Source of the DNA: Acidobacteriota bacterium
Lineage (GTDB): Bacteria; Acidobacteriota; Terriglobia; Acidiferrales; UBA7541
Direction: 5' to 3'
Assembly: GCA_003224085.1 (NCBI GenBank)
Contig: QHYK01000078.1
Span: 1-46,253, forward strand
Length of the DNA stretch: 46,253 nucleotides
In this document: one piece after another, positions 22,096 to 43,975 of the stretch
Layout: each line of letters begins with the position of its first letter
How positions within the stretch are numbered: the stretch's first letter is position 1
Notes under the pieces: model-generated
Database searches by the model: none
Seen by the model: the letters and a program-made list of their open reading frames with translations, nothing else
Told to the model about the DNA's origin: nothing
Translations under genes and position numbers: made by a program

Positions 22096-22850
22096 ATGGT
22101 TACCCTTGCCTGTGCGGTGGTGGCTTACCTGCGGTCGCTTTTTCTGCCACCTCACAAACTCGCCCTGGAAGCCGTCGCTCTTCGCCAGCAACTCGCCGTC
22201 TTCAAGCGGAAGCAGCCCCGGCCCAAACTGGATCGCCTCGATCGGCTGTTCTGGATTGTGCTCCGCCGGCTGTGGGAGGGCTGGTCCGAAGCCCTGATCA
22301 TCGTCAAGCCGGAGACCGTGGTTTCCTGGCATCGCGCCGGATTCCGGCGGTTTTGGCGGTGGCGGTCTAGAGCGACGTCGACCGGGGCGACCACAGGTGA
22401 ATGCGCAGATCCGCCAGTTGATTCCACGCATGAAGGCGGAGACTCGGTGGTGCGCCTCGCATTCACGGCGAACTGCTCCAGCTCGGGTGCGAGATTTCCG
22501 AGCCCACGGTTTCGCGTTATCTTCACAACCTAAACGGTTGTCGGAATGAGGGCAGAGCGAAGCGCTGGCTGGCCTTTCTCAACAACCACCGCGAGGTAAT
22601 CGCCGCATTCGACTTCTTCACGGTTCCGAGCCTGACGTTTCGCATCCTCTACTGCTTCTTTGTTATCGAGCATGGTCGCCGACGGATCCTACACTTCAAC
22701 GTCACGGAGCATCCGGCCAGCGACTGGATCGTACAGCAACTGCGCGAGGCTCTGCCGCTTCCCTGTCCCTACCGCTACGTCCTGTTCGACCGTGACACCA
22801 AGTTCAGCGGCGATGTGGTCGCTTCGCTCTTGCATCCGGCACGCCATCTA
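22096..22850 (+). pseudogene. rve-type transposase, N-terminal and catalytic part, frameshifted
   Basis: Starts VTLACAVVAYLRSLFLPPHK, LALEAVALRQQLAVFKRKQP. After frameshifts it continues QVNAQIRQLIPRMKAET and, from about 22545, AKRWLAFLNNHREVIAAFDF, then LREALPLPCPYRYVLFDRDT. The first catalytic Asp (AAFDFF) and the second (FDRDTKF) are visible. The Glu block with WQNPYVERLVG is missing here but occurs at 44.9 kb on the other strand. It breaks off near 22850, inside the end of the permease gene. Confidence 0.8.
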
Positions 22851-24305
22851 AAGTTCTGGTGGAAGACTCTCAGGACTCGTTTCAAACGGAGATACAGCAC
22901 GGGGTCCTCTTCGGAATCGTACTCTCCGGTATTCCAGGCTCATAAGCGCCAGAAGCACAAGAAACGCGGGAACGGAATACTGCAAACCCATGACGACGAA
23001 AGTGCTGCCCGCAATTGCGATCAGGACAGCGATACCCAGAATATTGGACACCGGAAAGAAGCGAAGTTTCAGAGGCAACTCCTTGACTTTTGTTCCTATG
23101 GCCCGGCGAAACCTAAGATGGGTGACGAGAATAACGATCCACACATAATACATGCCGGCCACGGCAGAACCGTACAAAAGGAGGAAGGCGCGCTGCGGCG
23201 CGTAGACCGCAAGCAAAATCGCAATGACCATACCCAAGCTCGAAACTGCGAGCGCGCGATGCGGGACGCCTTTAGAGCTTAAGGCGCCCAGCGGAGCCGG
23301 CGCTAGACTCCCGCGCGCAAGTGAGAACAACATTCTGGTGGAAAGATAGAGGTTTGTATTCGCACTGGAGAGGGCCGCTGCGATCACTACGAGGTTCATG
23401 ATCGAAGCGGCGTAAGGGATTCCGACAGATGCAAACGCCCGCACGAAGGGGCTTCCGGACAGGGTTCCGTCACCGGTTTGATTCCAGGGTGTGACCGTGA
23501 CCATCACCGCGATAGCCAGGACATAAAAAAGGATCAGGCGAAAAACCATGGTGCGCATCGCTCGGGGAATAGCTTCTTCAGGACGCTTGGCTTCTCCCGC
23601 GGTAACGGCCAATACCTCCACGCCCATGTAACTGGACATGGTAAGGGTGAACGCAAGCCACATGCCTCGAAGCCCATGAGGGAAGAAACCGCCAAACGCG
23701 GTGAGGTTCGTAAGTCCCCTAGCGGGGCGCGGCGACAGCCCTGTGATCAGGACGACTCCCACGCCGATGAAAACAATGATCGCGGCAACTTTTACCCAGG
23801 AGAACCAGTATTCGAACTCTCCGAAGTTGCCTACGTGCAACGCATTGATGCAAACAACCCCGAGGGATACGACGGAAACCCAGACCCACTGCGGAATGGA
23901 CGAGAACCAGAACTGGAAATAAATGGCAACCGCCGTCACCTCTGCACCGATAGCGATGATTTGCACGAGGCCGTACGTCGCACGAACGGTGAAGCCAGCC
24001 CAGGGATTCAAATAGCGCTGTGCGTAGATGCCGAAAGATCCGGCAACCGGATGGACCACAGCCATCTCCGCCAGCGAGTAGGCCATGATGAGCGCCAGGA
24101 ACGCTCCGAAGATATAGGTCAGAATGACGGAGGGTCCGGCGAGGCTTACGGTGACGCTGCTGCCGAGGAAAAGGCCCACCCCAATGGCGCCGCCGATGGC
24201 GATCATGGATAGCTGCCGCTCAGAAAGCTTTCGCTGCAGATGGGAGGAGCTCACCGCCGCGTTCGCTGGTGATCCGTTCTGGAGCGACTCGTTCGTAATC
24301 GTCAT
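22848..24305 (-). CDS. APC-family amino acid permease
   Basis: 485 residues with about twelve hydrophobic segments. The family signature is near residues 30-60: RQLSMIAIGGAIGVGLFLGS, followed by the proline/glycine motif in AGPSVILTYIFGAF. The later block EEAIPRAMRTMVFRLILFYV is also typical of AAT/GABA-type permeases. It would bring an amino acid or close analogue across the inner membrane by proton symport. It lies 72 bases after the class V PLP gene and probably shares its transcript. The last dozen residues (from about SPFETSPE) fall where the transposase remnant ends, so the natural C-terminus has probably been replaced. Confidence 0.85.
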   Translation of the reverse strand: MTITNESLQNGSPANAAVSSSHLQRKLSERQLSMIAIGGAIGVGLFLGSSVTVSLAGPSVILTYIFGAFLALIMAYSLAEMAVVHPVAGSFGIYAQRYLNPWAGFTVRATYGLVQIIAIGAEVTAVAIYFQFWFSSIPQWVWVSVVSLGVVCINALHVGNFGEFEYWFSWVKVAAIIVFIGVGVVLITGLSPRPARGLTNLTAFGGFFPHGLRGMWLAFTLTMSSYMGVEVLAVTAGEAKRPEEAIPRAMRTMVFRLILFYVLAIAVMVTVTPWNQTGDGTLSGSPFVRAFASVGIPYAASIMNLVVIAAALSSANTNLYLSTRMLFSLARGSLAPAPLGALSSKGVPHRALAVSSLGMVIAILLAVYAPQRAFLLLYGSAVAGMYYVWIVILVTHLRFRRAIGTKVKELPLKLRFFPVSNILGIAVLIAIAGSTFVVMGLQYSVPAFLVLLALMSLEYRRVRFRRGPRAVSPFETSPESLPPEL

Positions 24306-24377
24306 TGCTGGCCTACCGGATACAGGAGCACTTTGGCGAATGCTGCAAAACGGGCATCCGAGAGAGCGCCGTACAGT

Positions 24378-25622
24378 TCAATTGCCTGCGATCCCCTGGA
24401 GAGCATTTAGGAATAATCGAATTTCTTCATGCGTGTTGTAATGAACCAACGAGGCCCTTACAGCGCCGCAGGCCGGCGAGATTCCGAGGCGCTTCATCAG
24501 ACGTGGCGAATACATATGGCCGTCGCGGACAGCGATGTTCTTTTCTCCAAGTTTGGCGGCCAGTGTGGCTGGCGGGACGTCCCCCCAATTGAAACAGATT
24601 GTAGGGACTCGCTGGTTGACAGCGGAGGGATCGTTGACGCCATATACCTTGACGCCCTTGATGGCGTGTAATCCGTTCAAAAGCGCCTGTGACAGTGTGG
24701 CTTCGTATGCGCGAATGAGTTCCATCGAATGTACCAGCCGTGCGCGCAGACTATCGGGGCGATCGTTCTGGCCGGGCTCCTTTCCGAGGCCGGCCAAGTA
24801 TTCAACCGCGGCACTCATTCCGGCAACGTTTTCGTAAACAAACGTCCCAACCTCGATCTTTGAAGGTGGAACATCGGGAATGAAATCTTCGCGGAAGGTG
24901 GGCAGCGCCTCAAGGGCTTTGCGCCGGCCCCAGAGAAAACCCATATGAGGACCGAAAATCTTGTACCCGGAGCAAACGAGGTAATCACATCCCCAGTCCT
25001 GAACGTCCACGGAGCCGTGAGGTGGGTAATGGACACAGTCGATGAATACCTCCGCACCCACGGCATGGGCACGCTGCGCCACGCCAGCTACATCGACAAT
25101 TGTGCCCAGTGCGTTTGAAGCTGCGGTGCAGGCAACAAGCCGAGTGCGAGAGCACAGAAGTTGCTCGAGGTCTGAGAGATTCAGACTGCCGTCCTCGCGT
25201 ACCTTCCACCATCGGATGACGGCGCCCTCGCGAGTTAATGCCAGCCAGGTAGCGACGTTGGCCTCATGATCAAGTTCGCTGACGATGATTTCCCTGCGGT
25301 CAGAAAGGCTCTGGCCGAGCGCCAGGCTTACCAGCCGGATGAACGAAGTAGCGTTCATGCCAAAAGAAATCTCATCCGGATCGGCGGCATTCAGAAGGGC
25401 AGCCACAGTCTGCCTGGCGCGGGCAATGACGGCGTCCACTTCCTGGCTCTCGCGATAAGGGCCACCTCTCTGCACATTCCTACAGAGCAGATGGTCATTC
25501 ATCGCAGCGAATACCGGCTGGGGGATTTGCGCGCCGGCAGCATTGTCGAAAAACACCGTGCCGCTGCCGCGATTCAATGCGGGAAACATTCGCCGCACGC
25601 GCTCGATCGGAAACTCAGCCAT
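24378..25622 (-). CDS. Cysteine desulfurase-like class V PLP-dependent enzyme
   Basis: 414 residues from the ATG at 25622, which is preceded by AAGGGACAAGG; the frame opens at 25676. It has the class V fold with PLP lysine K221 in VCSGYKIFGPHMGF, the cofactor-stacking His in SELDHEAN (H119) and the Asp of VFIDCVHYPPH (D195). The pattern matches the cysteine-desulfurase-like family TIGR01976. The usual catalytic-loop Cys of SufS/IscS is not obvious, so a lyase, desulfurase or aminotransferase reaction on an amino-acid-like substrate is possible. It lies between the Asp-box gene and the permease in a collinear block. Confidence 0.85.
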   Translation of the reverse strand: MAEFPIERVRRMFPALNRGSGTVFFDNAAGAQIPQPVFAAMNDHLLCRNVQRGGPYRESQEVDAVIARARQTVAALLNAADPDEISFGMNATSFIRLVSLALGQSLSDRREIIVSELDHEANVATWLALTREGAVIRWWKVREDGSLNLSDLEQLLCSRTRLVACTAASNALGTIVDVAGVAQRAHAVGAEVFIDCVHYPPHGSVDVQDWGCDYLVCSGYKIFGPHMGFLWGRRKALEALPTFREDFIPDVPPSKIEVGTFVYENVAGMSAAVEYLAGLGKEPGQNDRPDSLRARLVHSMELIRAYEATLSQALLNGLHAIKGVKVYGVNDPSAVNQRVPTICFNWGDVPPATLAAKLGEKNIAVRDGHMYSPRLMKRLGISPACGAVRASLVHYNTHEEIRLFLNALQGIAGN

Positions 25623-25818
25623 CCTTGTCCCTTCCTGTCGCACGATCTGTGCCTTACTTACCACCAGCTCTGCCAAGAGCGCTGTCCTCGTCAGTTCTGA
25701 ATCCGTTGCAGAGCCTCAAGCGACATTGAGCGCGGAACTTTACCGCCAATGGCGACCTATCTCGCTCCGTGACAAAAGACCTGCGGCAATGCCTTCACGG
25801 CAACCTCCTACTGGCCCT

Positions 25819-28800
25819 TTATCTACTGATTTCGCCGACGAGTGCTCTCCAACGTCCGAGCAGATCTTGTGCTTCCTTGTCATATTCCTGGAAATCGACG
25901 TATTCCTGCGCAGTGGGAGCGGAATCTGCGCTTTCCACGGCGTCGGCAACGTTGGCCAGGGCAGCATCCAACATGATTGGCTCGACAAGCGCGGCATATC
26001 GATTAACGGAGGCGACCTGCGTAAGCCGGCCTTCGATCTCCGACATCCTTTGTTCAATGGATTGAACGACCTGATCGTTTCCACCATTCGGGTTTTTGCG
26101 CCGAGCTTCCAGCGCTCCCCGCTGGGCACGAATCTCATTGACGGTCTTGTGAATTTCGCTGATGCGGTCTCGAATTTTCACGGCCAACTCGTACTGTTTG
26201 TCGAAATCGGTTTGGCTGATATGCACCCGGGGGTCTGGTTTAATTTCAAGCGAAGCCGAATAGTCTTTCCCACCGACACTGAGCTTCACTTGATACATGC
26301 CGGGAGGAACGACCGGTCCGCCGCCATTGGCAAGTTCCAGAATGTAGATGCCCGGGATTGTAGCCGGGCCTTCTTCCCTGAAATTCCATACGTAACGATT
26401 CATCCCCGTGCGAGCAGGCAGCGAGTCTTCGCCTCGGCCTGAAACTCTCCGCTGAGCGCCGGCGCCGGCGGATTCTGCTCGTTGCTCACTGGAAGCTTTG
26501 TGCACAAGGCGACCCTTGGCATCGAGAATTTCGAGCGTGACCACTCCAGGCACTGAACGAAGGTAGTAGTCAATCGTAGCGCCCGCCGGAGGATTATGTC
26601 CGACATTTTTCCGAGAACCGCCTCCAAATCCACCCTGCGTGTGTACGCGGTACGCGATTGCCGGTGCAAACAGATGAGCAGGCTGAGAGGCAATCTGCGA
26701 GTTTGCTTGAAGGAGGGGCGTGATATTGTCTAGCACCCAGAATGCCCGCCCATGGGTCGCAGCGATTAGATCATTGCCGCGGATGGCGGTGTCATACACT
26801 GGAGTGATGGGCAGGTTAAGTTGAAGCGATTGCCAATCGGCGCCGTCATCAAGGGAAACGTAGATACCGAGTTCGGTTCCAGCATAAAGCAAACCCTTTC
26901 GCTGGGGATCAGCGTGTATGGAGTGGACGTAGGCGTCCTTTGGAATGCCGTTCGTGATCTCCGTCCAAGTTTTGCCCAAATCCGCGGTTTTGAAAATCAT
27001 GGGATGAAAATCGTCGGAAAAATGCAGGTCGGCTGCAGCATAGGCGGTGTTCGCATCAAACGGAGAAGGCTCGATCAAATTGATGCGAGACCATTCGGGC
27101 AGCTGCTTTGGAGTGATGTTGGTCCAGTTTTTTCCACCATCCTTTGAAAGATGAATCAGGCCATCATCGGTTCCCACCCAAAGGAGGTCCTTTTGAATTG
27201 GGGATTCCGCGACTGCAAAAATCGTGTCGTAGTACTCCGCACTGGAGTTGTCGGGAGTCAGAGGTCCTGGAGTGGATTGCTGCTTGGACTTGTCGTTTCG
27301 GGTTAAATCCGGGCTAATGATTGTCCAGTTCCTACCACCATCCGAAGTCTTGAATAGCACTTCGCCGCCCAAATAGAGAACATTCGGATCATGAGGGGAT
27401 AGGGCCATGGGAGCCGTCCATTGGAAGCGGTGCCGGAGATTCGCAGCGGGATGCGCTCGTCCGCCGAGCCAAGGAGCGATATTCATGACCTGGCCCGTGT
27501 GGCTGTCGTATCGAGTAAAATGACCAGCATGATCCCCACCGTAGACGATCTGTGAATCGCGAGGGTCGGGCCAGTTATACCCCGATTCGCCGCCGCCAAC
27601 AGGACTCCAATCCCCTACATCGATTACGCCATGGTCCGTGCGGCTGCGAATCGCTACGGTCGAGCTGTCCTGCTGTGAGCCATAAAGGCGATAGTCGAAT
27701 TCGTGGTTTATGGCAACGTGGTAAAACTGTGCAGTCGGCTGGTTGTCTTGTGGTGTCCAAGTCGCGCCGCCATCAACAGTAATCGTCACGCCGCCATCAT
27801 CCGCCTCAATCATGCGCTTGGGATTGGCGGGGTCAATCCACAGAGCATGGTTATCCCCGTGAGGAACAGGCAGCGACTCGAAGGTTCGTCCACCATCCGT
27901 GGAACGAAAAAGGCCGAGATCGAGCAGATAGACGGTATTCTCGTCCTGCGGATCTGCATAGACGTGATTCTGGTACCAGGGGCGCACCCACATGGGATCG
28001 TTGTTCATCATCTGCCAGTTCGCGCCCCCGTCGTCGGAGCGATACAGCGCGTTTTCCTTGGCTTCGATGATCGCGTAGACACGATTGGAATTCGCTTTTG
28101 AGACAGAAACTCCTATGCGGCCCAAGATTCCTGGCGGGAGACCATGGCCTTCGAGGCGCTTCCAAGTCGTCCCCCCATCCACGGATTTGTAAAGTCCGCT
28201 GCCGGGTCCACCGCTGACCATGCTCCACGCGGAGCGGCGGACTTCATACATGGCGGCCAACAGAATGTTCGGGTTATTGGGGTCAAAGACGAGATCCGTG
28301 GCGCCCGTCTTGTCATCCACATAAAGAACTTTCTGCCAGGTCTTACCTCCATCCATGGACCGGAACACACCCCGCTCTTCGTTGGGGCCAAAAGCGTGTC
28401 CTATGGCCGCAACAAAAACATGCTCGGGGTTAGTCGGGTCAATAAGTATGGAAGCGATATGCTGGGTATCCCGCAATCCGATGTTAGCCCAGGTCTTTCC
28501 GCTATCGAGCGACTTATAGACTCCATCACCGAAAGAAATGTCGTTCCTCAGGCATTGCTCTCCCGTGCCTACGTAAATAATGTTGGCGTTTGAAGGAGCT
28601 GGCGCGATCGCTCCTATAGAGGAAACGTGCTCGTGGTCAAACAGGGGAGTCCAAGAAGCACCACCATCGGATGTCTTGAACACACCGCCCGCTACCGCCC
28701 CGAAGTAGTAGACATTTGGATTTCCCGGAATTCCGGCCACAGCTTCCGCTCTGCCCCCACGGAACGGACCTACTAAGCGCCATTTCATGCCGTCGTACAG

Positions 28801-28905
28801 GTTGGTTGGGATGGATTGGGCAAGAGCGCATTGCGCGAGTCCCTGCGCCATCAGTATGGCAGCCATGAGTATGAATTCCGTTCGCTTAGCTTGGCGAGCC
28901 GACAT
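25819..28905 (-). CDS. Secreted Asp-box (BNR/VPS10-like) beta-propeller protein A
   Basis: 1028 residues from the ATG at 28905, with GGAGG 6 bases upstream. A signal peptide ends near CALAQ (about residue 30). At least ten Asp boxes of the form S-x-D-x-G-x-x-W are visible (TSDGGASWT, SLDSGKTWA, SMDGGKTWQ, SVDGGTTWK, SDDGGANWQ, TVDGGATWT, TSDGGRNWT, SKDGGKNWT, TADLGKTWT, SLDDGADWQ). They indicate two beta-propellers as in sortilin/VPS10 or sialidase-like proteins. A C-terminal helical region (about 900-1020) has a coiled-coil look. It is often annotated as glycosyl hydrolase, but no catalytic residues can be assigned. Paralogue of the gene at 35816. Confidence 0.85.
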   Translation of the reverse strand: MSARQAKRTEFILMAAILMAQGLAQCALAQSIPTNLYDGMKWRLVGPFRGGRAEAVAGIPGNPNVYYFGAVAGGVFKTSDGGASWTPLFDHEHVSSIGAIAPAPSNANIIYVGTGEQCLRNDISFGDGVYKSLDSGKTWANIGLRDTQHIASILIDPTNPEHVFVAAIGHAFGPNEERGVFRSMDGGKTWQKVLYVDDKTGATDLVFDPNNPNILLAAMYEVRRSAWSMVSGGPGSGLYKSVDGGTTWKRLEGHGLPPGILGRIGVSVSKANSNRVYAIIEAKENALYRSDDGGANWQMMNNDPMWVRPWYQNHVYADPQDENTVYLLDLGLFRSTDGGRTFESLPVPHGDNHALWIDPANPKRMIEADDGGVTITVDGGATWTPQDNQPTAQFYHVAINHEFDYRLYGSQQDSSTVAIRSRTDHGVIDVGDWSPVGGGESGYNWPDPRDSQIVYGGDHAGHFTRYDSHTGQVMNIAPWLGGRAHPAANLRHRFQWTAPMALSPHDPNVLYLGGEVLFKTSDGGRNWTIISPDLTRNDKSKQQSTPGPLTPDNSSAEYYDTIFAVAESPIQKDLLWVGTDDGLIHLSKDGGKNWTNITPKQLPEWSRINLIEPSPFDANTAYAAADLHFSDDFHPMIFKTADLGKTWTEITNGIPKDAYVHSIHADPQRKGLLYAGTELGIYVSLDDGADWQSLQLNLPITPVYDTAIRGNDLIAATHGRAFWVLDNITPLLQANSQIASQPAHLFAPAIAYRVHTQGGFGGGSRKNVGHNPPAGATIDYYLRSVPGVVTLEILDAKGRLVHKASSEQRAESAGAGAQRRVSGRGEDSLPARTGMNRYVWNFREEGPATIPGIYILELANGGGPVVPPGMYQVKLSVGGKDYSASLEIKPDPRVHISQTDFDKQYELAVKIRDRISEIHKTVNEIRAQRGALEARRKNPNGGNDQVVQSIEQRMSEIEGRLTQVASVNRYAALVEPIMLDAALANVADAVESADSAPTAQEYVDFQEYDKEAQDLLGRWRALVGEISR

Positions 28906-28938
28906 GTTTCCTCCAACCGTCAATCGAGATGTGAATTC

Positions 28939-29862
28939 CTAATGGACGCGCCCGTCTCCATGCGAAACGGATAGTTGCTGATAAATTGTCCCGGCATTGT
29001 CCGCAAAGGTTGCATGGAATTGCGGATACTGACGGAAATCGGCATATTTCTTCATGTTGATGTGTGCGCGAACCTCCGCGACGGAAACTCCGGAACGCTG
29101 TAATTTTTCAACTTGCGCATAAAGCTCCGCTAGATAGTCACGAAAGCGGGTCAACGTGGCCGGCGTCCCAACGTCAAAATGTCCCGGCACAAAATAATCT
29201 ACCGGCAGACGCAGCATCGAATTCAGAGCCTGAATCCAATTGGAGACGCTTCCCTGGTCCATTGCTGGTGAGCTATTTGTCAGGTATAGATCACCAGTGG
29301 CCAGTGTCTTCTGTTTTGGAAAATAAACGTAAACGTCGCCCATGGTGTGGGCTGGTCCCACCATCACAACCTCGACCGGAATGTCATCGAGGAAGATGGT
29401 GAGTTTATGGTCCAGAGCCTCCGTCGCAGGCCGGAATGCCAGCTGCGGGGCGTCGCCAACGGCCGATTGGGCTTCGGTACGTTGCGTTTTCGAAATCAAC
29501 TGAAGGGTTTTCTCTCTCGTGAAGGCCGAGCTGATAACTATGGCTTCCGGCCCCACAACCCCGTTTCCACCCTGATGGTCGGGATGGTAGTGCGTGTTGA
29601 TGATAAATTGAACTGGCAGCGCGGAGATCGCACGTATTTCCGCGAGCAGCTTCAGACCTTCCGCCTTGTCTAAACCAGTGTCAACAACGAGGATGCCATG
29701 CAGCCCAACTAGAAATGTGGAATTGGCGCTGTGATCGTTTTCGCTGATGTAAGCGTAAAGATCCGGCGCCAATTTCTGCACGTGCGGGCTTGCGCATGGC
29801 GCCAGCGCGCAGACAAGTAGGAGTGCTGTTGCGTATGCCGAGCGCCGCATCCGTCTGCTCAT
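28939..29862 (-). CDS. Exported MBL-fold metallohydrolase
   Basis: 307 residues with a signal peptide (residues 5-25, ALLLVCALAPCAS). Metal ligands are complete for a binuclear site: HYHPDH (H91, H93, D95, H96), GPAHTMGD (H172), ATGDL (D191) and VPGH (H228). This resembles exported MBL proteins of the quinoprotein-relay/SoxH-like type. The substrate is unknown; a thiol ester, lactone or beta-lactam is possible. It starts 10 bases after the receptor 3 stop and ends 33 bases before the Asp-box start, so all three probably form one operon. Confidence 0.9.
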   Translation of the reverse strand: MSRRMRRSAYATALLLVCALAPCASPHVQKLAPDLYAYISENDHSANSTFLVGLHGILVVDTGLDKAEGLKLLAEIRAISALPVQFIINTHYHPDHQGGNGVVGPEAIVISSAFTREKTLQLISKTQRTEAQSAVGDAPQLAFRPATEALDHKLTIFLDDIPVEVVMVGPAHTMGDVYVYFPKQKTLATGDLYLTNSSPAMDQGSVSNWIQALNSMLRLPVDYFVPGHFDVGTPATLTRFRDYLAELYAQVEKLQRSGVSVAEVRAHINMKKYADFRQYPQFHATFADNAGTIYQQLSVSHGDGRVH

Positions 29863-29872
29863 TCCCGGGTTC

Positions 29873-32800
29873 CTAGAAGCTAAGCTTCAGCCCAAACTGG
29901 ATTAGCCGGGGTCCGCCCGAGCCCAGACCGACATTGTTCTGGGCGACGTCGGGGGTCTGGAAAATCGCACCAAAATTTGGCGCGGTCAAAATGTTGCCGG
30001 GCAGCGCAAAGTTTGGATGATTGAAAATATTAAAGAACTCTGCGCGAAATTCGATAGTGGCAGTTTCCGCCACCCGTGTGTCCTTCATCATGGCAAAGTC
30101 AAAATTCTTGAAAGGCGGGCCTTTTACGATGTTTCGACCCGCGTCGCCAAACGAGAGCGGCTGGTTGAGCGTAAACGCCGCAGTGTTAAACCATTCCGCG
30201 ACCGTCCTAGGGCCGGCGTTTGGGTTCCCAATGAGGTCCGGGCGGTCGGTCCCAAGTCCCGTGCTGCTTTGATCAGCGCCTGTCAATACAGAAAGCGGCT
30301 GACCGGTTTGCAGCGTCACGATTCCGGTGGTCTGCCAGCCATCGGCGATCAAGCGAGGCATTGCGGACACGAGATGCCGAAGAGAGGGTATCTGGTAGAC
30401 GTAATTAGCCGCGAAGCGATGCCGAATGTCGAAATCGGAGAGCCCGCGTTCTGCCCGAGTGTCGTAGTTGTCTTGCGGAAAGATCGTCGTGCCGTTAGCT
30501 CCAGAACCGTAGAAGACGGAGGCGCCATCGATCGATTTCGACAACGTATAAGCCAGACCAAAGCTCAAGCCGTGACCTGCGTGCTTGTCTAGCTTCGTCT
30601 GAAGCCCGTTGTAGGCGGAACTAACCGAGTTTTCTGCCTGGAAAATTTGTGCGTAGCCGAAATAAGGCACTCGCGCAATGCTCGGGATGGCTCCGGGCCC
30701 TTGAGAAGCGAGGAATTGCGCCGCCGGTGCGGGAATGCCCATCAGCTCCATGCGCGTAACGACATCGGGTGTCAGCGCGTTGATTTGAGCTTGCGTAATG
30801 TATGCTTGGTCGATTTGGCGGAATCTAGGCAGGTGCGTCCCCGTTGAACCCACATATCCAATTTCAAAGAGCATGGCCCCTGGCAGTTGGCGCTGCACGT
30901 CGAGATTCCAGGCCTGCGAATAGGGCGTCTCGAATCGTGCTGGCGTGATGGTGATCACTGGGAAGCCCGAAGGTGCGAAAGAATTCGGCCAACCGAGCGT
31001 GGGAGGCAGATCGAAATAGTCCGGCATATAAGGCGGATTTAGGAGTACGTTGCCTGAAATCTGGCCGAGGACTGTGTCGTAAAAGATGCCGTACCCGGCA
31101 CGCAGAACGGTCAAATGTTTCTGCCCGGGAGTCCACGCAACCCCGACGCGCGGCGCGAAATTCTTGTAGTCCGGATTGTATAGCCCGCCTTGATTTTCGG
31201 TAACCATCCCCGATGCTTCGAGTACGGAAAGATCTGTTTGATCCGCGGTGGGTGAGAGAAATTGGGAAAAACGGTTCGGTCGGAAGGTGGTAGCGCGCCC
31301 GGTGGCGTCGTGAATGACGGTATTGTATTCATAGCGCAAGCCGTAATTGAGCGTAAGGTTTGAGCGGAGCTTGAAGGTGTCCTGAGCAAAGAAATCGTAG
31401 CTCGTGATTCGGTAACTGCGAGCACCGTTGCCAACGAAGTGAAGCGAGCCGCTGGGAAGGCCTGCCGCGAAATCCGCGAACGGATTGACGATGCCCTGGG
31501 GATTCAGCGTTCCGGTGAAGGTGATTTGTCCGATAAAGTCGAGGTCATAAAGGATGTTGTCGCGGACGTTGCGGATGTCGGTTCCAAATTTCCATTCGTG
31601 GCGGGCTGTCGTCCGGGAGAAGTGATCAATCACTTGAATAGTGTTTTGCGCCGAAGCTGTCGGGTTGTTGTTGTTTGACCCGAGATTCGAAAATGCCCCT
31701 CCGCCGGACACAAGTCCGCCAGCCATCGTTAGGTTGGGAATATTGCCCAGATTCAGAGGTGAGTTTGCCGGCCAGCCGGTGTTGAAGCCATAAGTGGCGG
31801 CTTGAGGGCCTTTTTCGTTGTACTGGCTGTCCGTATTGCGTGTGAAGCCAAGGCGGAACTCGTTCAGGGATGACGCGCTCAGAATTCGCGTATAGCCAGC
31901 CGAGAAGAGATGGGTGCCGCCCGTATCAAACCCGCCGTAGCCAGGGATAGCCGTGGTTTCCTGGCCCGGAGTGAAAGGATTGAAAATATTATAGCGTGTG
32001 TAGCTGTATCGAGCCGTGATCGTGTCGTTGCGTGCCGTACGATGGTCAATCTTGAGGAGATATTGGTCAGTCGAGTCCGTAAGTCTGGGTGAGGAGATGA
32101 AATTTCCTCCTGCCTGTGTCGTGTTAGGCTCCGGATATAACTTGAACAGCTGAGCAGCGACCGGATCCAGCGGGAGTTGAACGCTATTCCCTTTCGCATC
32201 GGTGAAGATACCTTGCTTCTGAGCATCCGTGGGCACAATCGTGAGCCGGGAAATGCCAGCGATTTGGCGAAAGCCTTCGTAGTTGCCAAAGAAAAAAGTG
32301 CGATCTTTGAGAATCGGCCCGCCGAGCGCACCGCCAAATTGACTAAGCCGCAGCTCTGGACTAGACGCGTTGGGGTTAGCAAAGAAGTTTCGCGCGTCAA
32401 ACGCATCATTACGGAGAAATTCGTAGAGCGAACCGTGGAATTGATTGGTCCCCGATTTTGTGACTAGATTTACCACCGAGCCGCTGTTACGTCCGTATTC
32501 GGCCGAGTAGTTGTTGGTCTGCACTTGGAATTCCTGGATCGAGTCAATGGACGGGAGTTGCGATACGGAACCTCCCTGATAGTTATTATTGTCGATCCCG
32601 TCGACCATGAAGTTATTGGAGCTCGAACGTTGCCCGTTCGACGAATATCCGGAGATACCGCCTTCGCCACCCTGCTGGCCTCCGCCACCACCAAATGCTG
32701 CTACGCCGGCGTTGAGCAGCGCCAACTGCGCAAAGTTCCGTCCATTGAGTGGCAACGCAGTCACCTGCGTTTCGCTTATGACGTCGCCGAGATGCTGTGA

Positions 32801-35701: not shown

Positions 35702-35785
35702 TTGCGAGAAACACTCAGGCTGTTATAATCCGCGTTCGTTAACGGTGCCTAACCGCCCACCGATATGTTTTGCGTATACAAACGA
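35702..35785 (+). promoter_or_regulatory. Promoter and GTATAC box of the second Asp-box gene
   Basis: TTGCGA (35702-35707), 16 bases, TATAAT (35724-35729). GTATAC at 35774-35779 lies about 40 bases downstream of the predicted transcript start and 37 bases before the ATG, within TTTTGCGTATACAAACG. The shared CGTATAC with the box at 34611 suggests common control by the GntR regulator. Confidence 0.55.
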
Positions 35786-35815
35786 TATTCCGAGTTACTT
35801 CGTAAGAGGTGCGCC

Positions 35816-38800
35816 ATGAACCTGCGACGGATGCTTCGCTTGATGCCTTTCCTTTGCACAGTGCTATTGCCAGCGGTGCCGATTGCCCATGCACAAGTTG
35901 ATCCTGCGTTGTTCCAGGAACTTCAATGGCGCTCGATAGGGCCGGATCGCGGCGGGCGCGTGACGGCCGTGGCCGGGCTGGTCCATGACCGGTCGACATA
36001 TTACATGGGTGCGACTGGAGGCGGCGTCTGGAAGACCGTCAATGCGGGGATCACTTGGGTGCCGGTCTCCGATCGTTTTTTTAAGACCGGCTCCGTGGGA
36101 GCGATTGCGGCGGCGGAATCCGATCCGAATGTTGTTTACGTGGGAATGGGTGAAGCCTGCTTGCGTTCGAATATCTCTCATGGGGATGGCGTGTATAAAT
36201 CTGTCGATGCAGGGCGGACGTGGAAAAATCTTGGACTGCGCGACACGAGTCAAATCGGGAGGGTGTGGGTGGATCCCCACAATGCGGACTTGGTCTATGT
36301 GGCCGCGATCGGACATCCCTATGGTCCCAACGAAGAGCGGGGCGTGTTCCGTACCTCAGACGGAGGCAAGACTTGGAAGAAAATCCTGTATGTCAACGAA
36401 AAAACTGGCGCAGCTGACCTGACCGTCGATCCGCGAGATACACGAGTCATGTACGCCACGACGTGGCAGGTGCTGCGGCATCCTTGGGACATCTATGAAT
36501 TTGGTCCAAGGAGCGCCATTTACAAAACCACAGACGGCGGGGACACCTGGATCCGATTGCAGGAGGGGCTACCACAAAACGAAATGGGGAAGATTGGGAT
36601 TTCCGTATCGCCAGCCGACCCGGATCGCATTTACGCAACGATCGGGGGTAATGACGGAGGAATCTATCGCTCCGACGATGCCGGGAAAACGTGGAAGCTG
36701 ATCGACGGAAGCTTCGAAATGCATGCTCGCCAGTATTATTACGGTCACATTTTCGCGGACCCCCTGCAGCCGGACACCGTATACACATTTTCCTCCAAGG
36801 ATTTTTACAAGTCCCAGGACGGCGGAAAGACTTGGACAAGAATTCAAACGCCGCACGGTGACTTTCACGACTTGTGGATCGACCCACACGACAACCAGCG
36901 CATGATCAACGGTAATGACGGCGGGGCAACCGTGACTTTCGACGGAGGCAGGAGTTGGAGCCCGGAGAGCAATCAGGCAACCGCGCAATTTTATACGGTG
37001 CGAACCGACAACGACTTTCCCTATCACGTCTACGGCGCACAGCAGGACAACACCACCGTGGCAATCTCCAGCCAGCCCCAGGGCGCGCGCAGCGGCGGTT
37101 CCAATTTCGCCGAAGTAGGAGGCGGCGAGAGCGGATACGTCGTGCCCGACCCAGTAGATTCAGCCATCGTTTATGCTGGGGCCTTTTGGGGACTGCTAAC
37201 GCGCTTTGACCAAGCGACGACAAGCATGCGCAACATTACCGTGTGGCCGGATCTGCCGGGCGGGCGTACCGGCGCTGAATTGAAATATCGCTTCCAGTGG
37301 ACATTTCCCATTGCCATCTCGCCTGCGGACACCGCCGCGATCTACGTCGGGGGAAACGTAGTGTTCAAATCTGTCAATCAAGGGCAGAGCTGGCAAGCCA
37401 TTAGCCCGGATTTGACCAGGAACGATAAACAAAAGGAAAACGGGGGAAGGCTCGAGGACATCTACTGCACGGTATTCACGATTGCCCCTTCACCGCTTGA
37501 CAAAAACGTGATCTGGGCAGGTTCGGATGACGGTCTGATCCACATAACGCGCGACGGCGGAAAGTCCTGGGCCGATGTAACGCCGCCGGAAATTCAGCCT
37601 TGGACGCGAATCAACGTGATCGAAGCCTCGCCTCACGATGCGGCCACGGCGTATGCAGCGGTAAACCGCTATCAAATGGACGATTTTCGACCCTACATTT
37701 ATCGCACGCAAGATTACGGCAAAACCTGGACACTCACCGTTGCAGGGATCCCGGACGATACCTTCGTGCGCACGGTCAGGAAGGACCCGGTACAGAAAAG
37801 CCTGTTGTTCGCAGGGACAGAGACGGGTGTCTATGTTTCGTTCGATGACGGTAATCACTGGCAGAGTCTGCAATTGAATTTGCCCGTGGTGCCGATAACC
37901 GATCTGACGATTCACGACAGTGACCTCGTAGCCTCAACACAGGGAAGGGCATTTTGGATTTTGGACGACATGGCTTCACTGGAACAGGGTGTCGCAGCAA
38001 ACCCCGCCTCCGAAGTGCGACTGTATAAGCCTCGGGATGCGTATCGCGGCAGAAGCGGACGCGGATTCGCGGAAGAGCGTGGTCCCCTCAGGAGTGCGAT
38101 TGTGGACTATTGGCTCGACCATGCGCCAGCTCAACCCGTCATCATCGAATTTCAGGATGCTGCAGGGAAAACCATCAAAGCGTTTAGCAGCGCAACTCAA
38201 ATGCAGCCTACTGCTGCAGCTCGTGGCGGACGATTGTCAGGCGGTGCCGGCTCATCCGTGACCGCGCAAGCTGGCATGAACCGCTTCCTATGGGACATGC
38301 GTTACCCCGATGCCCGTGGGATCGAAGGCGGCTCGTTTTTTCTAGGCGGCAGTCTGCGTGGACCTCAAGTGATTCCTGGGCGATATCGGGTGAAGTTGAC
38401 GGCTGGGACGCAATCCATGACCGAGGACTTCACGATTAGAAAGGACCGTGGAATCGTCGCCTCCGATGAGGACTACGGAAAACAGATTGAACTGCTTCTC
38501 GCTCTGCGCGACAAGCTTTCAGACGCAGATGATGCGGTCAATCGAATTCATCATCTGCAGCGGCAAATAAAAGCTGTTGCAGAGAAAGCCGGGGCAAATC
38601 GCAGACTGATGGACGCCGAACAAACATTGAACGACGCGCTAAATGGAGTGGTTTCCAAATTGTATGAGCCGCGATTCACCGGATTCGACGATCAGACGCT
38701 GATTTATCCACTGAAGCTGAATAACCGCCTTGCGGCCCTGGCCAGCTCTGTCCAGGGGGATTACCGGCCTACGCAGCAGGAAGTCGACGTATTCGCAGAA

Positions 38801-38935
38801 CTTTCGGCGGAACTCGACGACGCTCTGTTGAGCCTTAAAAGGATTCTCGGGACGGATTTACACGCATTCAACAATCAGCTCAAAGCTTCAGGATTACCGG
38901 AGATCGACTCTGGCCCGCAGGCAAGTCCGAACTGA
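35816..38935 (+). CDS. Secreted Asp-box (BNR/VPS10-like) beta-propeller protein B
   Basis: 1039 residues from the ATG at 35816, with AAGAGGTG upstream. Signal peptide MNLRRMLRLMPFLCTVLLP to about residue 27 (IAHAQ). Roughly ten Asp boxes (TVNAGITWV, SVDAGRTWK, TSDGGKTWK, TTDGGDTWI, SDDAGKTWK, SQDGGKTWT, TFDGGRSWS, TRDGGKSWA, TQDYGKTWT, SFDDGNHWQ). The C-terminal 150 residues are helical and charged. Order and spacing of the boxes follow protein A, so the two are paralogues, now on opposite strands. Role presumably extracellular or periplasmic binding or hydrolysis; no catalytic site can be named. Confidence 0.87.
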   Translation: MNLRRMLRLMPFLCTVLLPAVPIAHAQVDPALFQELQWRSIGPDRGGRVTAVAGLVHDRSTYYMGATGGGVWKTVNAGITWVPVSDRFFKTGSVGAIAAAESDPNVVYVGMGEACLRSNISHGDGVYKSVDAGRTWKNLGLRDTSQIGRVWVDPHNADLVYVAAIGHPYGPNEERGVFRTSDGGKTWKKILYVNEKTGAADLTVDPRDTRVMYATTWQVLRHPWDIYEFGPRSAIYKTTDGGDTWIRLQEGLPQNEMGKIGISVSPADPDRIYATIGGNDGGIYRSDDAGKTWKLIDGSFEMHARQYYYGHIFADPLQPDTVYTFSSKDFYKSQDGGKTWTRIQTPHGDFHDLWIDPHDNQRMINGNDGGATVTFDGGRSWSPESNQATAQFYTVRTDNDFPYHVYGAQQDNTTVAISSQPQGARSGGSNFAEVGGGESGYVVPDPVDSAIVYAGAFWGLLTRFDQATTSMRNITVWPDLPGGRTGAELKYRFQWTFPIAISPADTAAIYVGGNVVFKSVNQGQSWQAISPDLTRNDKQKENGGRLEDIYCTVFTIAPSPLDKNVIWAGSDDGLIHITRDGGKSWADVTPPEIQPWTRINVIEASPHDAATAYAAVNRYQMDDFRPYIYRTQDYGKTWTLTVAGIPDDTFVRTVRKDPVQKSLLFAGTETGVYVSFDDGNHWQSLQLNLPVVPITDLTIHDSDLVASTQGRAFWILDDMASLEQGVAANPASEVRLYKPRDAYRGRSGRGFAEERGPLRSAIVDYWLDHAPAQPVIIEFQDAAGKTIKAFSSATQMQPTAAARGGRLSGGAGSSVTAQAGMNRFLWDMRYPDARGIEGGSFFLGGSLRGPQVIPGRYRVKLTAGTQSMTEDFTIRKDRGIVASDEDYGKQIELLLALRDKLSDADDAVNRIHHLQRQIKAVAEKAGANRRLMDAEQTLNDALNGVVSKLYEPRFTGFDDQTLIYPLKLNNRLAALASSVQGDYRPTQQEVDVFAELSAELDDALLSLKRILGTDLHAFNNQLKASGLPEIDSGPQASPN

Positions 38936-40012: not shown

Positions 40013-40041
40013 TTGACACGGCTAACCTGCCTCACTATAGT
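40013..40041 (+). promoter_or_regulatory. Sigma-70-type promoter of receptor 4
   Basis: TTGACA (40013-40018), 17-base spacer, TATAGT (40036-40041): a near-consensus promoter. The start codon is at 40088, giving a leader of about 40 bases containing GGAGG 6 bases before the ATG. It lies 73 bases beyond the right end of the deleted transposon. Confidence 0.8.
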
Positions 40042-40087
40042 CCACGCCGATTGTCGAACTGTCGGGGGCTTAACCACGGAGGTACGT

Positions 40088-43000
40088 ATGCGGGGAAAGC
40101 GCTCGATCCGCAACGTTGCTGCTATCCTCATTTGCCTGCTTGTTCTTGCAGCTGAGAGTTTATTCGGCCAATCTGGATCTTCTGGCTTGGTCACAGGCGT
40201 GGTCACGGATCCGTCTGGCGCCGCTATCGTCGGTGCAACAGTGACCCTGCAGCAACAGGGTACCGGCGCGACACAAACCGCACACACGGATGCCGATGGA
40301 CGCTACGTCTTTCCCTCGGTGAATCCTGCAAATTATACGCTGACCTTCGCTGCGCAGGGTTTTGCGACGACGGTAGTCCAAGTGTTGAAGGTGGAGGTTT
40401 TGAAGAGCTCGACAGTCAACATGACTTTGCAGATAGGCACGAATGCACAAACTATTACTGTTTCAGAGGCTTCGGCGGCCGTGGAACTGCAAACAACCAC
40501 TGCGACCGTAGGAGAGGTATTGGGCGGCGTGGCGCTGGAATCGCTGCCGGTGTTTACACGCAGTGCAAGCGCACTGATGTTTTACCAGCCGGCGGTTTCG
40601 CCCAGCGGTCAAATCGCGGGCGCGCGGGATGAGCAGATAACCTTCACGCTCGACGGAGGGGATGTAACGAGCGACTTGGAAGGAAACAACGGCTACGCAG
40701 CTCCACCCGGCGAGCCAACACCCTCGCCTGTGGTTCCGATTCCGATTGAAAGCACAGAGGAGTTTCAAGTAGCGACCACCAACCCCAACTCAACTTTTGC
40801 GCGGTCATCCGGCGGACAGGTGGCCGTTCTGACTAAGGCGGGCACAAACACGCTTCACGGTTCGGCATATGAGTTTCATAACGACGATGGGCTGAACGCG
40901 AATACTTGGACCAACAATCGGCTCCGCATTCATAAGCCGCACGGTGTGGACAACCGCTTTGGCGCAACCCTGGGTGGCCCGATCTGGAAAAACAAGTTCT
41001 TTTTGTTCGGGAATTATGAAGGCCGCCGTTTCTATGATGACTCTACCTTCAATACCGTAATACCGACGGCCACTCTGCGAAGCGGCATCTTGCAATTCCG
41101 TGACGCTTCCGGTGCGGTGGATCAATTCTCCTTTCAGCCGGGGAACATCACCACGGCTTGCGGCGGGGTCTCTTGCGATCCGCGAAACATTGGGATGAGC
41201 CCCGCGATTGCAGCCCAGATGGCGCTTTATCCCGCTACGGGCAACAACTCAGCCTTGGGCGATGGACTTAACACCACGGGTTTCACCTTCAATGCGCCCA
41301 CACCGGTCTTGCAGAACATCGGTGTTCTGCGCGCGGATTACAAGATCAACCGGAACTGGAACTCGTTCGTCACCTATCACTTTGCGAACACAACCCGCAC
41401 CGGTACGGAGCAGTTCGACATCGTAAACACAGGAGCGCCGACAGCTGTTTCCGGAGATCCTATCAAAGCATGGTTCGGAACTTTCCAAGTCCAAGGGCAA
41501 CTGACGTCAACTCTGATCTCGGTGACTCATGGATCTTTTTTACGCGACTGGTGGGGGTGGGACCGGTTAAGCCCTACTCCGCTCGTGTCCGGATTGCAGG
41601 AAACTCTTTCGCTGGCCGGTGAAGGTGTGGGCACGAGCAATAGCACTAGCAAATTAATTGCCGATCCGATTGTGAATAACACGCAATCGGCACGCGCCCG
41701 GGTGTTCGATGGGCACAAGTGGTATTTGGCACAGGACTTCAGTTGGTCAAAGGGCACGCACCTATTTCAATTTGGGGGCTCCGGGTACATCTCGCACAAC
41801 TTCTTTGAAAAAACAGACAATTTTGCAGGCGGCCTGACCGCCGGACCAATCGATTACATCGAGGCCCAGGGGAATGGCAGCGGACAATTTGTTTCCATTC
41901 CAAGTGCTGACCGGTCGGCGCTTTGCGGCAGCGGTGTCACAACAAACTGTCTCACTTCGGCAAACGTACTGCGGTACAACGAACTCTACGCCACTCTTCT
42001 CGGCCTGGTGGATCGCAGTTCGCAAGTGTTGACGCGCAACGGCAGTTTCCAGCCGAATCCGCTTGGCACGCCAATGTTCTCGCATACGCTGATTCCGGCC
42101 GCCAACGGCTACTTTCAGGACATATGGCAACTCCGTCATAACCTTACGTTGACTTTGGGGCTGGATTGGCAGGTGCAACCGACGCCTCACGAATCCACTG
42201 GAAAATATGATCTGCTGGTGTACGCCAGCAGTAATCAGCCCGTGGATTACCAGGGTTACTTCGAGCAGCGGGGGGCGTCCTTAAATAGCGGGGTGCTTCC
42301 CGGCCAGGCGTTCAATCCTCTGTTCGGCGTGTCTCCGGTTGGCTCTGTTGCGGCGCCTTTTACGAATCAAGTGAGGGTTACGGACTGGCACGAGTTTGGA
42401 CCGCGCATCTCTGCCGCGTGGCAAGTCGATAAAAAGACCGTAGTCCGCGGCGGCTACTCCATCGTGTATGAGCGCTTTGACGACATCAACGAAGTGTCTC
42501 TCGTGCTCACCACCGGTGGGCTGCTGGATGTGGATGCTTGCGGTGGACCCGTGCTCTCGGGTGGGTCGCCAGTTTGCACGAACGCCAGGACGAATCCCAG
42601 CAACGCCTTCCGCATCGGCGTGGATGGCAACAGTGTGCCAGTGCCGGCGCCTTTCGCGGCGCCGATCCCTTACGTTCCCAGTGGGAGCTCGACACAGCCA
42701 TTTGGGCTCTTCATGATGAGTGGTCTCGACCCTTACACCGTGCCCGGACACGACCATAGTATTGATTTCACCGTGCAGCGAGAGTTGCCCTGGAAGATGA
42801 TTTTAGAAGTGGGGTATATCGGTCGCGTAAGCCGGAATTTATTCAATGAGTACTCGTTGAATGCCGCCAACTACCTGATGAAAGACAAAGCAAGCGGGCA
42901 AACCTACGCCCAGGCTTTCGACGGAGTGGCACAAGCGCTGCGGACCGGTACGGCAATACCAGACGAGCCATTTTTCGATAACCAAATCGGCTTGGCGAAA

Positions 43001-43975
43001 TGCAATGGACTGGGCTTTGCGAACTGCAGTGCCATGGTCGCAAAGCAGGACCCGACCGATCTCATTAACGGCTCTCTGAACTTTTTTTCGCTCAACGAAT
43101 TCAATCTCGTTGCCCCAGTTCCGGTTGACAATATGCAGTCGTTCCAATCCTTCGCCATCACCGACGGCGGGTATTCCAATTACAACGCGGGTTTCGCCAG
43201 CCTAAAAAAGAGCTTTGGAAGTGGATTGCAGTTCCAGGGAAACTGGACCTGGAGTCACGCGATCGGAAATCAGGGCGTCGATCAGCAAAGTGGCAGCACA
43301 TCGAACAGCCCTTACAACATCAATCTGGACAGGGCTTCGGAGAGCTTTGACCGCCGCCACGTTATTACCGCATGGTTTTATGATGAGCTGCCGGTCGGCA
43401 AAGGACGCAGATTCAACGTGCAGAGCGTGCAGAGTTCGCTGCTCGATCGCGTGATCGGCGGCTGGTACACTTCCGGTATTTATACGTTTTCAACCGGCAC
43501 ACCGCTTTATATTTCCGCGAACGGCGACTACGGCGATTACGAAAGCAAGGGCACAGCCGCCATCTGCTCACAACCACTTGGCAGCCTGTACGGCCAACAC
43601 TACGGCGTGGTCGGTTCGAACAACATTGCTACCTCCGGCAACGCCTCCAGTGGGGGCAGCGCCTTGAACCTGTTTGCTAACCCCGTGGCCGTATACCAGT
43701 CTTGTTCGCGTCCTCTGCTGAGTGTCGAGGGCCGTATTCCGTATGATCAATTGCGCACGCCGGCAACCTGGAACTTTGATTTCTCGCTCGGAAAAGATTT
43801 TGCCGTCACTGAGCGGTACCACCTCGTGTTTTCCGCCGAGATGTTGAACGTATTTAATCTCGTCAACTACGCGGCGCCCTCGTTGACCTTAAACAGCCCG
43901 ACAAATTTCGGCGTTTTCACCACTCAGGCCAATTTACCGCGGCGCGTTTTACTTGGGCTGAAATTTCAGTTTTAG
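40088..43975 (+). CDS. TonB-dependent receptor, Oar type (receptor 4)
   Basis: 1295 residues from the ATG at 40088 (GGAGG upstream; the longer frame to 40013 would start inside the promoter). Signal peptide to about residue 28 (SLFGQ), carboxypeptidase-regulatory domain LVTGVVTDPSGAAIVGATVT. The plug contains PVFTRSASALMFYQPAVSPS and EQITFTLDGGDVTSD. The barrel includes ATLGGPIWKNKFFLFGNYEG and ends RRVLLGLKFQF. Outer-membrane active transporter; substrate unknown. Closest functional neighbours are the second Asp-box protein and the GntR regulator on the same strand, separated by the deleted transposon. Confidence 0.93.
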   Translation: MRGKRSIRNVAAILICLLVLAAESLFGQSGSSGLVTGVVTDPSGAAIVGATVTLQQQGTGATQTAHTDADGRYVFPSVNPANYTLTFAAQGFATTVVQVLKVEVLKSSTVNMTLQIGTNAQTITVSEASAAVELQTTTATVGEVLGGVALESLPVFTRSASALMFYQPAVSPSGQIAGARDEQITFTLDGGDVTSDLEGNNGYAAPPGEPTPSPVVPIPIESTEEFQVATTNPNSTFARSSGGQVAVLTKAGTNTLHGSAYEFHNDDGLNANTWTNNRLRIHKPHGVDNRFGATLGGPIWKNKFFLFGNYEGRRFYDDSTFNTVIPTATLRSGILQFRDASGAVDQFSFQPGNITTACGGVSCDPRNIGMSPAIAAQMALYPATGNNSALGDGLNTTGFTFNAPTPVLQNIGVLRADYKINRNWNSFVTYHFANTTRTGTEQFDIVNTGAPTAVSGDPIKAWFGTFQVQGQLTSTLISVTHGSFLRDWWGWDRLSPTPLVSGLQETLSLAGEGVGTSNSTSKLIADPIVNNTQSARARVFDGHKWYLAQDFSWSKGTHLFQFGGSGYISHNFFEKTDNFAGGLTAGPIDYIEAQGNGSGQFVSIPSADRSALCGSGVTTNCLTSANVLRYNELYATLLGLVDRSSQVLTRNGSFQPNPLGTPMFSHTLIPAANGYFQDIWQLRHNLTLTLGLDWQVQPTPHESTGKYDLLVYASSNQPVDYQGYFEQRGASLNSGVLPGQAFNPLFGVSPVGSVAAPFTNQVRVTDWHEFGPRISAAWQVDKKTVVRGGYSIVYERFDDINEVSLVLTTGGLLDVDACGGPVLSGGSPVCTNARTNPSNAFRIGVDGNSVPVPAPFAAPIPYVPSGSSTQPFGLFMMSGLDPYTVPGHDHSIDFTVQRELPWKMILEVGYIGRVSRNLFNEYSLNAANYLMKDKASGQTYAQAFDGVAQALRTGTAIPDEPFFDNQIGLAKCNGLGFANCSAMVAKQDPTDLINGSLNFFSLNEFNLVAPVPVDNMQSFQSFAITDGGYSNYNAGFASLKKSFGSGLQFQGNWTWSHAIGNQGVDQQSGSTSNSPYNINLDRASESFDRRHVITAWFYDELPVGKGRRFNVQSVQSSLLDRVIGGWYTSGIYTFSTGTPLYISANGDYGDYESKGTAAICSQPLGSLYGQHYGVVGSNNIATSGNASSGGSALNLFANPVAVYQSCSRPLLSVEGRIPYDQLRTPATWNFDFSLGKDFAVTERYHLVFSAEMLNVFNLVNYAAPSLTLNSPTNFGVFTTQANLPRRVLLGLKFQF

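Follow-up and report, generated by a model that had tools for sequence, protein, structure and literature searches.

The window analyzed here is a 46,253-nucleotide stretch of DNA that makes up one whole contig (G000:C48; GenBank QHYK01000078.1) of an Acidobacteriota genome of 6.8 Mb in 159 contigs, and the system in question is a locus in its right half that combines TonB-type receptors, Asp-box proteins, an amino-acid permease and enzymes dependent on pyridoxal phosphate (PLP). Five of its genes form a block on the reverse strand. Read leftward, these are TBR3 (29873–33229), a TonB-type receptor or beta-barrel with a carboxypeptidase-regulatory domain (OMP_b-brl_4 barrel model, 745 bits; its Plug domain scores 23.6 bits, cut-off 23.9); MBL (28939–29862), a 307-residue hydrolase of the metallo-beta-lactamase fold (Lactamase_B, 85 bits); ASP1 (25819–28923), a 1034-residue Asp-box double-propeller protein (Sortilin-Vps10/BNR); PLP-A (24378–25676), a class-V PLP enzyme of the TIGR01976 family (515.5 bits, cut-off 352.35); and a 485-residue APC-superfamily permease (22848–24305; Pfam AA_permease, 337 bits). 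The intergenic gaps of 10, 15, 142 and 72 bases fit an operon, as had been suggested in an earlier note written from this sequence alone. On the forward strand lie a GntR/FCD regulator (34786–35568; FCD 89.5 bits, GntR 53 bits), the ASP1 paralogue ASP2 (35765–38935; Sortilin-Vps10/BNR) and a further TonB-type receptor, TBR4 (40013–43975; OMP_b-brl_4, 437 bits). Profile matches recovered every gene of the earlier note at its position. Its gene list had overlooked a broken second class-V PLP enzyme, PLP-B (reverse strand, approximate ends 33347 and 34498), and the remnant of a FAD/BBE-type oxidase 3' of TBR4 (44149–44388, forward strand; tblastn, 41% identity over 80 of 468 residues).

Both the Asp-box and the receptor families are abundant in this genome, which holds 42 Sortilin-Vps10 stretches, grouped into roughly 14 open reading frames (ORFs), and 67 OMP_b-brl_4 matches in its 6.8 Mb. 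Proximity within one genome is therefore weak evidence, and confirmation rests on comparison between genomes. For this we took PLP-A as the anchor and used the 80 best of 92 loci, which come mostly from Acidobacteriota and from Alpha- and Gammaproteobacteria (44 of the 80 are at least 19 kb long); the closest named loci belong to Acidobacteriota metagenome-assembled genomes. Neighbors were counted with a simple ORF caller and tblastn at E≤1e-10, weak matches included. The permease was matched in 53 loci, PLP-B in 32 (28 in its orthologue cluster), a BBE-type protein in 20 and MBL in 8 (7 in its cluster), while TBR3 orthologues number 6 by cluster and 11 if weak cross-hits are counted.

The fullest counterpart is a single contig of a distant Terriglobia genome (locus L133, G591:C70), where orthologues of all the genes of the locus except the regulator stand in a different order: TBR4 at 65% identity, ASP1 at 65%, ASP2 at 68%, PLP-A at 60%, the permease at 65%, MBL at 49% and TBR3 at 56%. 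L133 also carries an intact PLP-B (61% identity to the broken copy in the window), a cyclase and two IOR subunits, and its own GntR/FCD gene differs, with only 27% identity to that of the window. Genome G714 has the regulator, a dipeptidase, TBR3, MBL, PLP-A, ASP2 (whose alignment runs across a stop), the permease and TBR4. Genome G021 has TBR4, the regulator, PLP-B, ASP1, ASP2 and the BBE oxidase, the last also beside ASP2; PLP-A was not found there at E≤1e-80 nor MBL at E≤1e-40, which could reflect an assembly gap since this genome is only 77% complete. The earlier note had named as its own refutation that the genes are never co-located elsewhere, and because they occur together in new orders in distant genomes, this is not what was found.

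Of 399 genomes of the class, 9 have MBL, 17 have PLP-A and 8 have the two together (hypergeometric p=1.4e-11; p=6.6e-9 once the closest genomes, G000 and G008, are left out), so that the co-occurrence the note had asked about holds in eight of the nine MBL-bearing genomes. The two genes lie on one contig and at most 5 kb apart in G000, G008, G591, G682 and G714. An even draw of 396 genomes from the phylum contained MBL in only 2. Orthologues of ASP1 with at least 66% identity occur, among the matches listed, in at least four genomes (G000, G008, G021 and G591), a minimum count drawn from best matches with two candidates scored per genome; three of the four are PLP-A positive (p=2.5e-4), and two of these three are near-identical. 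The association of these genes is other than chance, and a co-inherited substrate-scavenging locus is well supported.

As the note had expected from the range of compartments represented, the genes that recur together encode a receptor at the outer membrane, exported hydrolases, a permease for amino acids and PLP enzymes of the cytoplasm. Its view of a single system was borne out as regards joint recurrence but not as regards one unit, because the set consists of two separable modules, which meet in the window, G591 and G714. The first holds TBR3, MBL, PLP-A and the permease, often with an Xaa-Pro-dipeptidase-like enzyme, and the second TBR4, the regulator, PLP-B, ASP1, ASP2 and the BBE oxidase. 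This division follows from the separate gene sets of G021 and of G056, where a TBR3–MBL pair and a PLP-A–permease pair sit on separate contigs. The Asp-box proteins, which the note had counted as members, do have orthologues in related loci, but they are not obligate: the examined stretches of L060, L061, L074 and L185 contain TBR3, MBL, PLP-A and the permease with no Asp-box protein, and ASP1 was accordingly rejected as an indispensable part.

MBL possesses the HxHxDH motif plus the further His, Asp and His ligands of the metallo-beta-lactamase fold, and these residues (H91, H93, D95, H96, H172, D191 and H228) are invariant in 13 aligned sequences. Its predicted structure (pLDDT 86, 13 sequences) is closest in fold to 8d2z, then to SdsA1 alkylsulfatases and a chlorothalonil dehalogenase. 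Metallo-beta-lactamases of classes B1 and B2 use a metal-ligand cysteine at the position where MBL has its invariant Asp191, within a TGDL motif, and the subclass model gives MBL 75 bits (cut-off 200). With this aspartate, and with MBL below the cut-off of every beta-lactamase model listed, beta-lactam breakdown was rejected. MBL, ASP1 and ASP2 were judged by eye to be exported, MBL and ASP1 having hydrophobic N-termini. The predicted structure of ASP1 (pLDDT 82, 15 sequences) lies nearest to GH74 propellers (Foldseek, TMq about 0.4). Asp-box propellers are common to ASP1, the GH74 xyloglucanases and the sortilin Vps10 domain, and GH74 enzymes are the best structural matches, but at TMq 0.30–0.42 and 14–18% identity, and ASP1 has extra C-terminal domains; xyloglucan use was rejected, as the likeness is at fold level only. 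Orthologues of ASP1 share 65–67% identity in G591 and G021, and those of ASP2, itself 42% identical to ASP1, share 65–68% in G591, G021 and G714.

Orthologues of TBR3 adjoin MBL in L060, L061, L073, L074 and L133 (56–59%) and reach 66% in G056. For TBR4 the values are 85% in G021, 65% in G591 and 60% over a partial match in G714. Two more OMP_b-brl_4 receptors stand elsewhere in the window, TBR1 (8027–11635), followed by a TPR protein, and TBR2 (13288–17196), and a DUF4932 protein (20168–21601; 208 bits) lies immediately beyond the leftward block. At locus L052 (G051:C301), in a genome that lacks the PLP-A subfamily, an MBL orthologue (54%) is found near a 560-residue protein with repeats that look Asp-box-like by eye and near a 43% Asp-box protein.

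The regulator has orthologues of 55–71% identity in L056, L057, L073, L074, L080, L088, L180, L185 and L186. A GTATAC palindrome (34611–34616; no strand) sits between the regulator and PLP-B, and a second one in the window, at 35774, lies at the start of ASP2. Across 12 GntR-adjacent regions we counted 10 sites, spread over 9 of them, where 0.34 would be expected. The regions were defined after the sites had been viewed and include the near-copies of the window and L055, and some sites fall at the edges of called ORFs; the remaining three regions (L066, L185 and L186) have no site. These counts suggest GTATAC as a candidate operator of the GntR/FCD regulator. Phosphonate use, considered from PhnR-like scores of the regulators, was rejected (TIGR03338, 82 bits in the window and 93 bits in L133, cut-off 271.5).

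The catalytic cysteine of cysteine desulfurases such as SufS and CsdA sits in an RxGHHC-type loop. Where this loop reads RSGHHCTQPL in the SufS-type enzyme 1t3i, the aligned segment of PLP-A reads RDGHMYSPRL, and across 81 PLP-A sequences the motif is HMY in 61, NMY in 5, HMF in 2 and HLY in 2, with no motif found in 11. Because the catalytic cysteine is absent, the label ‘cysteine-desulfurase-like’ that the earlier note had given to PLP-A is misleading. The nearest solved structure is instead FGM3 of fusaoctaxin biosynthesis (7e-55), and UstD of ustiloxin biosynthesis (7mkv) also matched (7.8e-42); by sequence both are class-V PLP relatives of PLP-A. At the PLP lysine PLP-A reads SGYK and FGM3 reads SWYK, and the preceding tyrosine is present in 80 of the 81 PLP-A sequences. 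PLP-A thus resembles the FGM3/UstD type in its nearest solved relatives, in this tyrosine and in the missing cysteine, the last two of which it shares with FGM3 (UstD was not in the alignment). The setting differs: FGM3 and UstD serve biosynthesis in fungi, and PLP-A belongs to a locus for bacterial uptake that also encodes a permease and a regulator.

In the available part of one paper, FGM3 is described as catalyzing a retro-aldol reaction (PMC10367076). Another, likewise available in part, reports that UstD and KynU employ a nucleophilic aminoacrylate and that the aminotransferases Aro8 and TyrB join alanine to isatin, that is, the reverse bond change (PMC13397446). The word ‘isatin’ is absent from the main text of the UstD paper, as far as that text was available. 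Since PLP-A lacks the desulfurase cysteine and has FGM3 as its closest solved relative, it probably acts as a C(beta)–C(gamma) lyase that releases alanine from a gamma-oxygenated amino acid; on these residues a C–C lyase role is likely.

PLP-B lies between TBR3 and the regulator and is frameshifted into three frames in tblastn, with an internal stop. In the sister genome G008 the gene is intact and encodes 385 residues, at 93.9% nucleotide identity to the copy in the window. In the near relative G029, where PLP-B is likewise intact, the permease is followed (L046:1876–4394) by a CN-hydrolase that scores weakly as a formamidase and by a third class-V PLP enzyme.

Further partner genes bear on the source of the substrate. 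An exported Xaa-Pro-dipeptidase-like enzyme (NF051886, 491 bits, cut-off 500) was matched by tblastn in 7 of the 80 loci, two of these matches being weak (35–41%), and its gene adjoins TBR3 in L050, L060, L061, L073, L074, L185 and L186; an M61 aminopeptidase is present in 4 of the 80. These dipeptidase-like amidohydrolases and M61 peptidases suggest peptides as the source, and the permease suggests that a free amino acid crosses the inner membrane. The top NCBIfam matches of the permease are ThrP, PRK10746, GABA permease, ProY, AroP and PheP, each under its cut-off.

A subset of related loci adds a specific chemistry. Isatin-hydrolase-type genes occur in 19 of the 81 loci (20 before L057 was left out of this count), and 17 of the 19 also carry IOR or sulfopyruvate-decarboxylase-like, 2-oxoacid-decarboxylating genes. 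Compared with an isatin hydrolase, the cyclases of L133 and L130 reach 355 and 412 bits, respectively. The L133 cyclase shares W59, W61, H69, H73, D75, H79, W80, D193 and H207 with LaIHA, the Mn-ligand and pocket residues compared being those named in the available part of PMC6117287, and it departs from LaIHA at Y204F and Q219A, the latter position being alanine in LaIHB (4j0n) as well. The L133 and L130 cyclases are thus like LaIHA, LaIHB and RsIHA, with pocket residues conserved, and no such enzyme is encoded in the window or was found in its genome at E≤1e-40. The pocket signature was found in 16 of 17 full-length members of the cyclase cluster, L057 failing it; L079 is truncated, and L076 and L098 fell outside this check. 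The cyclase of the Gammaproteobacterium locus L104 is a distant relative only (77 bits). In a PLP-A tree, for which L057 still counted as isatin-hydrolase-type, the loci with the hydrolase are spread over several separate clades, in Acidobacteriota and Alphaproteobacteria, but show clustering (3 changes, compared with 7.9 in shuffles).

Outside the window's family, the hydrolase is present in 6 of the 10 genomes that have PLP-A and in 3 of 46 chosen for comparison (p=4e-4, E≤1e-60). Within the family, where all 89 genomes were searched at E≤1e-40, the test gives p=0.59, and pooling, which mixes the two thresholds, gives p=0.03. For IOR, 39 chosen genomes were tested. Comparison genomes were picked, non-randomly, from those already listed. 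An isatin-hydrolase-type gene also travels alone with an IOR alpha subunit: the two adjoin in G013:C81 and G039:C343, where the best PLP-A match is a distant paralogue. Several proteobacterial PLP-A loci (L077, L092, L099, L103, L106, L122 and L123) have a CDGSH and cupin protein, the permease and a PLP-B-like gene. In the isolate Caulobacter sp. S45 (L083), IOR, an isatin-hydrolase-type cyclase, PLP-A, a TonB-type receptor, a cupin protein and the permease lie in one stretch, and this strain is a good laboratory model. Terracidiphilus gabretensis S55 and Acidobacteriaceae KBS 89 are further isolates with both PLP-A and the permease.

The known system closest to this subset is the iad locus of auxin degradation. 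IOR homologues are found in auxin-degradation loci, and iad loci convert indoleacetate to isatin and on to anthranilate (PMC9613470, available in part), a route whose early steps have since been revised (PMC12633357, likewise in part). The iad locus resembles the subset of related loci in its IOR-type subunits and isatin route. Unlike them, it starts from an acid and not an amino acid, and the available parts of the two papers show neither a PLP lyase nor a receptor or an APC permease; it also differs from the window, which lacks the isatin steps. The ipo and dho genes of indole breakdown were considered and, in the parts of the sources available, are unrelated to IOR. As a whole, the locus in the window resembles a SusC/D-type polysaccharide-utilization locus in its outer-membrane receptor, exported binding or hydrolytic proteins, inner-membrane importer, cytoplasmic enzymes and local regulator, but has an amino-acid permease and PLP enzymes in place of sugar enzymes; a Pfam scan of 20 window ORFs gave no SusD-type match.

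We tentatively propose, at rather less than even confidence, a scavenging locus of this general layout that obtains a modified amino acid from peptide-like material, with oxidized tryptophan as our guess at the substrate. The Asp-box proteins would bind the substrate outside the cell, the receptors would carry it into the periplasm, MBL and the dipeptidases would cleave it there, and the permease would import the freed amino acid. In the cytoplasm PLP-A would break the C(beta)–C(gamma) bond and release alanine, so that dioxindolylalanine, for instance, would yield alanine and isatin by a retro-aldol reaction; in the subset of related loci the isatin would then be hydrolyzed by the isatin-hydrolase-type enzyme and decarboxylated. 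For the clade of the window, the alternative substrate would be N-formylkynurenine or kynurenine. The GntR/FCD protein may sense the substrate and act at the GTATAC sites.

That the substrate is oxidized tryptophan is doubtful, a hypothesis with one strong line in its favor, from the relatives, and one strong line against it, from the window genome. At E≤1e-40 nothing in this genome matches isatin hydrolase, and at E≤1e-60 nothing matches IOR. In the window's family, searched at E≤1e-40, all 7 genomes with PLP-A are negative for the hydrolase, whereas 14 of the 82 without PLP-A have it (5 of the 14 by weak or split matches), and IOR was found in only 1 of 17 PLP-A genomes tested (G591). In the well-supported clade that unites the window with L055, L056 and L057, the stretches examined contain no true isatin hydrolase. 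With none found in either clade or genome, the substrate of PLP-A may differ, or a later enzyme may have gone unrecognized. Tryptophan-specific families are absent from the profile matches of the scanned window ORFs, and PLP-B, whose best solved match is a kynureninase, is broken in the window. As to the locus itself, MBL and PLP-A are on different contigs in G056, G345 and G651, and G051 has MBL without PLP-A.

The native substrate of FGM3 is also a point against oxidized tryptophan: it is a hydroxyarginine, and other gamma-hydroxy amino acids are therefore possible for PLP-A. A locus for another gamma-hydroxy or gamma-oxo amino acid, such as one of hydroxyarginine type or a residue of a non-ribosomal peptide, is accordingly a real, if somewhat unlikely, alternative, in which PLP-A would be a retro-aldol or decarboxylating lyase and isatin would be a product only in hydrolase-bearing lineages. 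The missing hydrolase in the window's family, the clustering of hydrolase loci in the PLP-A tree, the different partners in G029 and the substrates of the characterized kin (hydroxyarginine for FGM3, aspartate for UstD) all favor it. It sits less easily with the spread of hydrolase loci over separate clades in Acidobacteriota and Alphaproteobacteria and with L133, which has the window's set plus isatin hydrolase and IOR.

Scavenging of kynurenine or N-formylkynurenine, with the cyclase as deformylase and the PLP enzyme as a kynureninase yielding anthranilate and alanine, appears improbable. Among solved structures PLP-B is indeed nearest to kynureninase 1qz9, and the cyclase of L057, which belongs to the window's clade, has a Glu at the kynurenine-formamidase position and matches only an arylformamidase model (75 bits, cut-off 223). 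However, the PLP-B copy of L079 scores 71 bits against the kynureninase model TIGR01814 (cut-off 246), the window copy is broken, PLP-A is a TIGR01976 member, and the isatin-hydrolase signature is present in the 16 remaining full-length cyclases of that cluster.

Ordinary use of peptides or amino acids with a true cysteine desulfurase or sulfur-scavenging step is very unlikely. The automatic names of the PLP enzymes and of MBL (SoxH-related) point to sulfur, and related loci carry sulfopyruvate-decarboxylase-like subunits (beta 134 bits, cut-off 221.5; alpha 122.5 bits, cut-off 147.95), but these subunits and the SoxH-type score fall under curated cut-offs, and the replaced cysteine loop of PLP-A, HMY in most sequences, mostly refutes a sulfur role. 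A chance neighborhood of abundant Acidobacteriota families, for which the numerous Asp-box ORFs and receptors of the window genome might speak, can be set aside in view of the reordered co-location in G591, G714 and G021 and the co-occurrence of MBL and PLP-A, which persists without the two closest genomes.

Our literature search, which covered open-licence papers, found no description of this locus or pathway. Proteins misleadingly named cysteine desulfurase, sortilin and beta-lactamase form one inherited uptake-and-breakdown locus that is scattered through Terriglobia, with a PLP-A core common to Proteobacteria too. A dedicated bacterial recovery of oxidized tryptophan (dioxindolylalanine, or N-formylkynurenine and kynurenine) from damaged proteins and peptides, whose alanine and isatin would feed the isatin-to-anthranilate route where the hydrolase is present, is in our estimate an unlikely but specific outcome. 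If true, it would constitute a catabolic route for a form of protein damage, and the locus would offer naturally occurring PLP enzymes for the formation or cleavage of tertiary gamma-hydroxy amino acids. For the Acidobacteriota, the locus gives a concrete context to two of the group's abundant and unexplained Asp-box proteins.

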